From the NCBI RefSeq assembly GCF_029589435.1, contig NZ_JARRAG010000002.1, forward strand, positions 3,906,001 through 3,970,000: a stretch of 64,000 nt of DNA, given 5' to 3'. Shown here one piece after another: positions 15,434 to 17,652 of this stretch. The stretch's first letter is position 1. Each line of letters begins with the position of its first letter. Source of the DNA: Paludisphaera mucosa. Its GTDB lineage: Bacteria > Planctomycetota > Planctomycetia > Isosphaerales > Isosphaeraceae. The position numbers were made by a program, and so were the translations under genes. A model generated the notes under the pieces. It had not been told where the DNA came from and made no database searches. It saw only the letters and a list, made by a program, of their open reading frames with translations.

Positions 15434-16050
15434 GGGGAGCTTTTCCTTGGAATGAGGAGGGAAGGCTGGGGATGGGGTCGCGGGCCCCTGACGATCCGAG
15501 GCGGGCGATCCGACGGCTGCCGGGCCCGGCCCCCGAATGACTCCGTCGGCTCGTCGGCGAGCCTCTCGACGGCGACGGCCTCGCCGATCCATCTGGTGCA
15601 GGTCGCCCGCCCGGAGACGTGGGCCCGGGTCGACGCGTCGAAACGCATCGCGTCGGTCCTGGACGACGCCGACGCGGGGCCTTGTCGACCCCCCCCTGCC
15701 GCAGGCGCGGGTTCGTGGGCCGCAGCCCGCGCCCCCGACGCGGCCGCCGGCCGATCCAACATGATCCACGGATGCGACCTCGGCGTTGCGGCCGGGCGAT
15801 GAGAGGGCTTCGACCGGAGAAGAGTAAGACGTTAGCACACGCGTGCGCCCGAATCAACCGCGGCTCCGAGCGGGCCCGGACGCGTGGAAGCTCAATTCCG
15901 GGGTCGGGACGACCGTTCCCGGGCGGCTCCGACCAGGACGTCCGATTCCACCTCGACTTGCCGCCGGGGCGCGGGGATTCTACAATGAACCGCTCCAGAA
16001 TTCGGTCGTGGAACGGAGCCTAGCCTCCAACCAACAAACGACACCGTCTC
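15434..16050. other. Long divergent gap upstream of the ahcY riboswitch
   Basis: About 620 bases between the DUF1015 gene and the riboswitch. Open frames here are short, Arg/Pro-rich and overlap each other on both strands, so I call none. A slightly AT-richer stretch at 15815-15845 (AGAGTAAGACGTTAGCACAC) could belong to a promoter. No tRNA-like sequence is seen. Confidence 0.45.
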
Positions 16051-16131
16051 GTCGAGGGGCGCTGCGACGGCACGCATCGGCGTTCCTGCCAGGCTCGACG
16101 GGGTGGAGATTACGTCCGTGCAACGGCGCCC
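16051..16131 (+). promoter_or_regulatory. S-adenosylhomocysteine (SAH) riboswitch upstream of ahcY
   Basis: The sequence matches the SAH riboswitch core. Helix P1 is GTCGAG (16051-16056) with CTCGAC (16094-16099). The conserved GGGGCGCTGCGAC follows the 5' strand, and TGCCAGGCTCGAC carries the 3' strand. After a linker, AACGGCGCCC (16122-16131) supplies GCGCCC (16126-16131), which pairs with GGGCGC (16057-16062) to form the pseudoknot. The ahcY ribosome site (AAGGAGA) starts 12 bases further on. SAH riboswitches bind SAH and raise expression of SAH-recycling genes; here the gene is ahcY, the expected target. Motif, pairing and target all agree. Confidence 0.92.
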
Positions 16132-16157
16132 GTTCATCGTTTAAGGAGACTTTGAAC

Positions 16158-17594
<1,437 letters not shown>

Positions 17595-17618
17595 TCGGTC
17601 GCGATCGACGATCCTCGG

Positions 17619-17652
17619 CGGCAGGGAGCCTCGCTCCCTGCCGCTTCCTTTT
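17619..17652 (+). terminator. Intrinsic terminator after ahcY
   Basis: An 11-base-pair perfect stem, CGGCAGGGAGC (17619-17629) and GCTCCCTGCCG (17633-17643), with loop CTC, is followed by the T-rich CTTCCTTTTC. It begins 24 bases after the ahcY stop. Stem strength and pyrimidine tail fit a rho-independent terminator. Confidence 0.85.

Follow-up and report, generated by a model that had tools for sequence, protein, structure and literature searches.

The ahcY locus and its leader

The gene ahcY, encoding adenosylhomocysteinase, was located in a 64-kb stretch of DNA (hereafter the window) from a member of the genus Paludisphaera (Isosphaeraceae), in agreement with the planctomycete host proposed in a first-pass annotation of the sequence. 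The gene following ahcY encodes elongation factor P, and a DUF1015 gene in the opposite orientation lies upstream of the leader. The identity of the regulated gene as ahcY was confirmed by matches to TIGR00936 and PF05221 (Table 1). The strong terminator claimed to follow it corresponds to a terminator-like hairpin with a folding z of -4.1. The description of ahcY as a one-gene riboswitch unit holds in the window and fails as a general rule, since four relatives carry a second ahcY beside the riboswitched one.

The leader contains an aptamer for S-adenosylhomocysteine (SAH), which had been placed at 16051-16131. All of its elements were found where they had been described, but its start is at 16048 and not at 16051. 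The arms GTCGAG (16051-16056) and CTCGAC (16094-16099) form the inner part of a longer, nine-pair P1 helix (16048-16056/16094-16102). The pseudoknot GGGCGC/GCGCCC and the distance of 26 bases between its 3' end and the GTG of ahcY (16158) were recovered as annotated. The search for promoter-like sites returned two, compared with 0.1 expected in shuffles, and in several relatives the position corresponding to the putative promoter upstream of the aptamer is occupied by CTTG...TGGTATGAAT. The SD motif GGAGAC was present in 22 of 22 relatives, with the same spacing in most of them. A pairing of this motif with the 5' edge of P1 (GTCTC/GAGAC) fits the window; it was dropped because it is not conserved in relatives.

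Some leaders (L003, L004, L007, L013, L016, L018, L019 and L020) contain a hairpin just 5' of P1, between the promoter-like site and the aptamer. Its arms differ among leaders and are complementary (GGCCCG/CGGGCC, GGCTTG/CAAGCC, GTTGAC/GTCAAC); such a hairpin was not evident in the window.

Table 1. Features of the ahcY locus, with positions counted from the first base of the window
Feature	Position	Strand	Evidence and remarks
Promoter-like site TTGCCG-17-TACAAT	15958..15986	+	About 60 bases 5' of the aptamer; putative, from sequence
P1, 5' strand	16048..16056	+	Rfam alignment; in relatives, both partners differ in 3 of 9 pairs
Pseudoknot 5' strand GGGCGC	16057..16062	+	Pairs with 16126-16131
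P2 hairpin	16068..16088	+	C16068-G16088; GGCACGC 16069-16075 with GCGTTCC 16080-16086; one C.U mismatch
Conserved core CCAGG, between P2 and P1 3' strand	16089..16093	+	Invariant in family alignment
P1, 3' strand	16094..16102	+	Alignment; covariation in relatives
Predicted alternative (off) hairpin	16118..16173	+	Encloses ribosome-binding site and GTG, pairs with first ahcY codons; predicted by folding
Conserved AACG and pseudoknot 3' strand GCGCCC (16126-16131)	16122..16131	+	Six pairs standard or G-U in 98 of 98 distinct sequences
Ribosome-binding site (RBS) AAGGAG	16143..16148	+	9 bases 5' of the start codon
ahcY, adenosylhomocysteinase, 478 aa, GTG start	16158..17594	+	TIGR00936, 616 bits vs 497.6; PF05221
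Intrinsic-terminator-like hairpin, 13 pairs (10 G-C), then TCCTTTT	17617..17645	+	Folding z -4.1

Assignment to the SAH riboswitch class

The SAH riboswitch, RF01057, was reportedly described by Wang et al. in 2008. When the Infernal comparison proposed in the first-pass annotation was made as an Rfam scan of the whole window, the full RF01057 model (1-78) matched 16048-16138 on the plus strand with 52.7 bits, 15.7 bits above the gathering score of 37 (E 7.1e-7 over the whole 64 kb, 4.5e-9 for the local stretch). RF01057 was the sole Rfam family above its cut-off in the window, and a lax scan of 15900-16300 retrieved nothing besides it up to E 1. One copy of the SAH riboswitch was detected in the 8.2 Mb genome.

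Apart from the full-length match, the element shares with RF01057 the helices P1 and P2, the GCUGC..AC and CCAGGCU core segments (model alignment; invariant columns in relatives), a pseudoknot of six pairs between the strand after the 5' arm of P1 and the strand after CAACG, and the position upstream of the SAH-recycling gene ahcY.

Covariation in the ahcY leaders of relatives was analyzed in 22 sequences, 21 from Isosphaeraceae and one from family f101. The structure consisting of P1 and the pseudoknot was paired in 94.0% of cells, compared with 27-46% when the strands were slid. Changes on both sides were found in six pairs (16 cells), which was matched by none of 500 shuffles. Among 98 distinct sequences, all six pseudoknot pairs were always standard or G-U. 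The pair 16058-16130 was G-C in all 50 planctomycetes, as in the window, while the proteobacterial members displayed A-U in 42 of 48 cases and G-U or G-C in the remainder; A-U replaced G-C at the outermost pseudoknot pair of one planctomycete. The helices thus covary as anticipated, and together with the full-length RF01057 match they bear out the class proposed in the first-pass annotation. By these comparisons the element is a genuine SAH riboswitch of the RF01057 family with typical anatomy. A chance match, or an unrelated structured RNA resembling RF01057, has a negligible probability and was discarded, as it is contradicted by the E value over 64 kb and by the dozens of genomes in which the aptamer immediately precedes ahcY.

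It is very improbable that the aptamer has decayed, keeping its sequence while losing the ability to switch. The P2 helix of the window does have one mismatch and the functional status has so far been read from sequence, but the core positions do not vary among 22 relatives despite the divergence of their flanks, and the pseudoknot is retained throughout the 98 distinct sequences. This conservation suggests that the riboswitch is functional. By analogy with the RF01057 class, SAH would be its ligand and the switch would work in the ON direction.

The SAM/SAH riboswitch (RF01727) is, like the SAH riboswitch, a small pseudoknotted RNA that binds SAH in vitro; it occurs only in Rhodobacterales, upstream of metK (PMC2864571), and the window differs in this respect. 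The SAM/SAH class was rejected for the window element because RF01727 matched neither 15900-16300 at E values up to 1 nor the whole window in the Rfam scan. The SAM riboswitch classes share methionine-cycle genes with the SAH riboswitch, and their families gave no match in the window in the Rfam scans.

Distribution of the riboswitch and of AhcY types

SAH riboswitch regulons have been described in Proteobacteria, where metF is part of the ahcY operon in most of the studied lineages (PMC4239095), whereas the window riboswitch precedes ahcY alone. The class is already known, and the host group is one in which SAH riboswitches are little described. A literature search, which covered few subscription papers, found none placing the class in planctomycetes, and the Rfam full alignments may already list the occurrence. 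A class described mainly in Proteobacteria, and according to the first-pass annotation also in Actinobacteria, is hereby extended to a circumscribed set of planctomycetes.

Among the Isosphaeraceae, 22 of 45 genomes carried the riboswitch. The scans of the class and the phylum scored few candidates per genome, and their absences are therefore weaker than their presences: the riboswitch was identified in 53 of 348 genomes of the class (22 Isosphaeraceae, 30 of family f101 and one of family f104), and in a phylum sample of 392 genomes further matches above the cut-off were found only in G313 (family f36), with weak matches in five others.

In family f36, SAH aptamer matches of G313 (45 bits) and G330 (34.9 bits, under the cut-off) are located upstream of metE, encoding a cobalamin-independent methionine synthase (Pfam Meth_synt_1). 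The stretches concerned are L023:1501-1563 and from about 1739 onward, and L024:1501-1561. A second copy of the aptamer in G313 precedes ahcY.

In the relatives of the window, ahcY lies directly 3' of the riboswitch. The AhcYs of the 22 riboswitch-bearing Isosphaeraceae were 88-100% identical to the window AhcY, while those of Isosphaeraceae without the riboswitch were about 43% identical to the window type, and none was found in one incomplete genome. G012 had neither the riboswitch nor a window-type AhcY. In the class scan, a window-type AhcY (79-100%) was encoded in 51 of the 53 riboswitch genomes, the gene being cut by a contig end in the other two; among the 348 genomes, only G512 and G691 encoded a 79% identical AhcY without an aptamer in the leader. 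The riboswitch is patchy in planctomycetes and essentially always accompanies one AhcY type.

Both AhcY types were present in seven Isosphaeraceae genomes. In four of them (G028, G016, G020 and G043; L201-L204) the two distantly related genes, one of them riboswitched, are neighbours separated by 96-276 bases. Three of the four pairs begin with the riboswitch and the window-type gene, and the second ahcY in G028, G016 and G020 could be under the same riboswitch. Genomes with both types adjacent would reveal what the switch adds.

Origin of the riboswitch and ahcY

The nearest AhcYs outside the class were those of the betaproteobacterial Thauera, Azonexus, Azoarcus and Dechloromonas (82-85% identity), which with few exceptions carry the same riboswitch, and those of the Geobacter group, which lack it. 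Three families of the class have the riboswitch, and the distant family f36 has a short form of it, as would be expected if switch and AhcY were ancestral in planctomycetes and mostly lost, with the proteobacteria as receivers or independent keepers. Such vertical inheritance is nevertheless improbable given the AhcY phylogeny. The window-type AhcYs formed a clade (support 100/99) within mostly riboswitch-bearing proteobacterial AhcYs, and a branch supported at 100/98 separated it from most planctomycete AhcYs. A single clade of all planctomycete AhcY rows was rejected (AU p 0.010), and nearly rejected when the f36 rows were left out (p 0.052); the f36 AhcYs joined Sedimenticola and not the window type. 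The placement of the window-type clade inside the Betaproteobacteria was supported at no more than 82/83.

The riboswitch and this AhcY type constitute one cassette, which most likely derives from Proteobacteria related to the present Betaproteobacteria. Joint transfer is indicated by the nesting of this AhcY within betaproteobacterial AhcYs that have the riboswitch, and by its strong difference from the other AhcY of the family. The simplest reading would be that switch and gene were transferred jointly to an ancestor shared by these families, or that they entered more than once, with losses or patchy spread. The narrow distribution in planctomycetes and the nested position argue for a direction from Proteobacteria to planctomycetes. 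In this clean case, a gene and the RNA that regulates it seem to have moved together.

The AhcYs of the Geobacter group (L062, L068, L071, L072 and L079) nest in Rhodocyclaceae-like AhcYs and have no riboswitch match, so that either the gene moved without the switch or the switch was lost. An identical proteobacterial-type AhcY without riboswitch was found in a Candidatus Kuenenia-labelled record and in G122 (L097 and L140), which reflects either transfer or a binning error.

Readout and regulatory mechanism

Control of ahcY is most likely translational, since the pseudoknot and the GTG are separated by 26 bases and no terminator. A hairpin followed by a T-run was searched for between the two and not found in the window, and a terminator in this leader was rejected. 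The long CTCACC...GGTGAG hairpin of RF01057 members in several Betaproteobacteria is also absent from the 26-base link. The translational control proposed in the first-pass annotation fits this arrangement and the competing hairpin predicted over the RBS. With SAH bound, P1, P2 and the pseudoknot would hold the strand 16122-16131 (AACGGCGCCC), the downstream hairpin would not fully form, and the RBS and GTG would be reachable. When SAH is absent, the same strand would join the hairpin 16118-16173, covering the RBS together with the GTG and the codons that follow it. The mechanism is best read as a translational ON switch, with details that are still tentative.

Folded without the pseudoknot, the off hairpin had an MFE of -23.8 and a z of -2.34, and 3 of 200 shuffles were as good. 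Its core, CGTTCA (16131-16136) with TGAACG (16153-16158), was predicted in most of 50 leaders, with a mean stem probability of 0.85 in the free state and 0.62 with the aptamer held. The core stem GTTCA/TGAAC is nearly invariant, and because it hardly varies it has no covariation support. Compared with synonymous recoding of the first codons in 47 genomes, the mean z of the hairpin was -0.45 (p about 0.05, the rows not being independent), and in some leaders, e.g., L010, L160, L163 and L179, it was less stable than the recoded expectation. The predicted hairpin appears heterogeneous and, weakly, only slightly more stable than expected overall. The start codon was more often unpaired in the aptamer than in the free state on average (0.35 to 0.51), and in the window the value fell from 0.36 to 0.03.

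The same riboswitch might instead block early transcription, by Rho or by pausing in the leader, and leave the RBS aside. In the ahcY leader of G459 (L191; G459:C56:22705-22890), the pseudoknot 3' strand doubles as the 5' arm of an intrinsic terminator (CGCCCGCAA..TTGCGGGCGTTTTTT, also written GCGCCCGCAA...TTGCGGGCGTTTTTT) followed by six T. Judged from its sequence, this leader is the transcriptional counterpart of the same strand competition, which places transcriptional control among close relatives. Moreover, the four SD bases did not become more open on folding with the aptamer formed (on average 0.63 unpaired in the free and 0.57 in the aptamer state), nor was there a clear opening in the window. 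The window, however, has no T-run hairpin between aptamer and GTG, and 22 relatives show almost no change in the spacing of pseudoknot, SD motif and start, which leaves transcriptional control a small but real chance. We consider it probable that the window element is an RF01057 member switching on ahcY upon SAH build-up, most likely at translation, within a cassette of proteobacterial origin.

One aptamer is thus combined with differing readouts, an RBS hairpin in the window, a terminator in G459 and long hairpins in Betaproteobacteria. This natural series lends itself to studying how an aptamer can remain constant while its expression platform is exchanged. The proposed joint transfer and rebuilding of the readout merit further study. 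Tentatively, and as a possibility that we would not yet call probable, the cassette may have moved from Proteobacteria to planctomycetes with its core kept and the proteobacterial hairpin dropped, a compact translational switch arising in which the 3' strand of the aptamer pairs with the first codons (GCAAC/GUUGC). Many relatives have GTTGC, complementary to GCAAC of the aptamer, within the first ahcY codons, and the window has GTC there. Valine codons at positions 2-9 were GTT in 34 of 49 cases, compared with 143 of 1567 later in ahcY and, in a small control, one of 17 at positions 2-9 across 28 other genes of the window.
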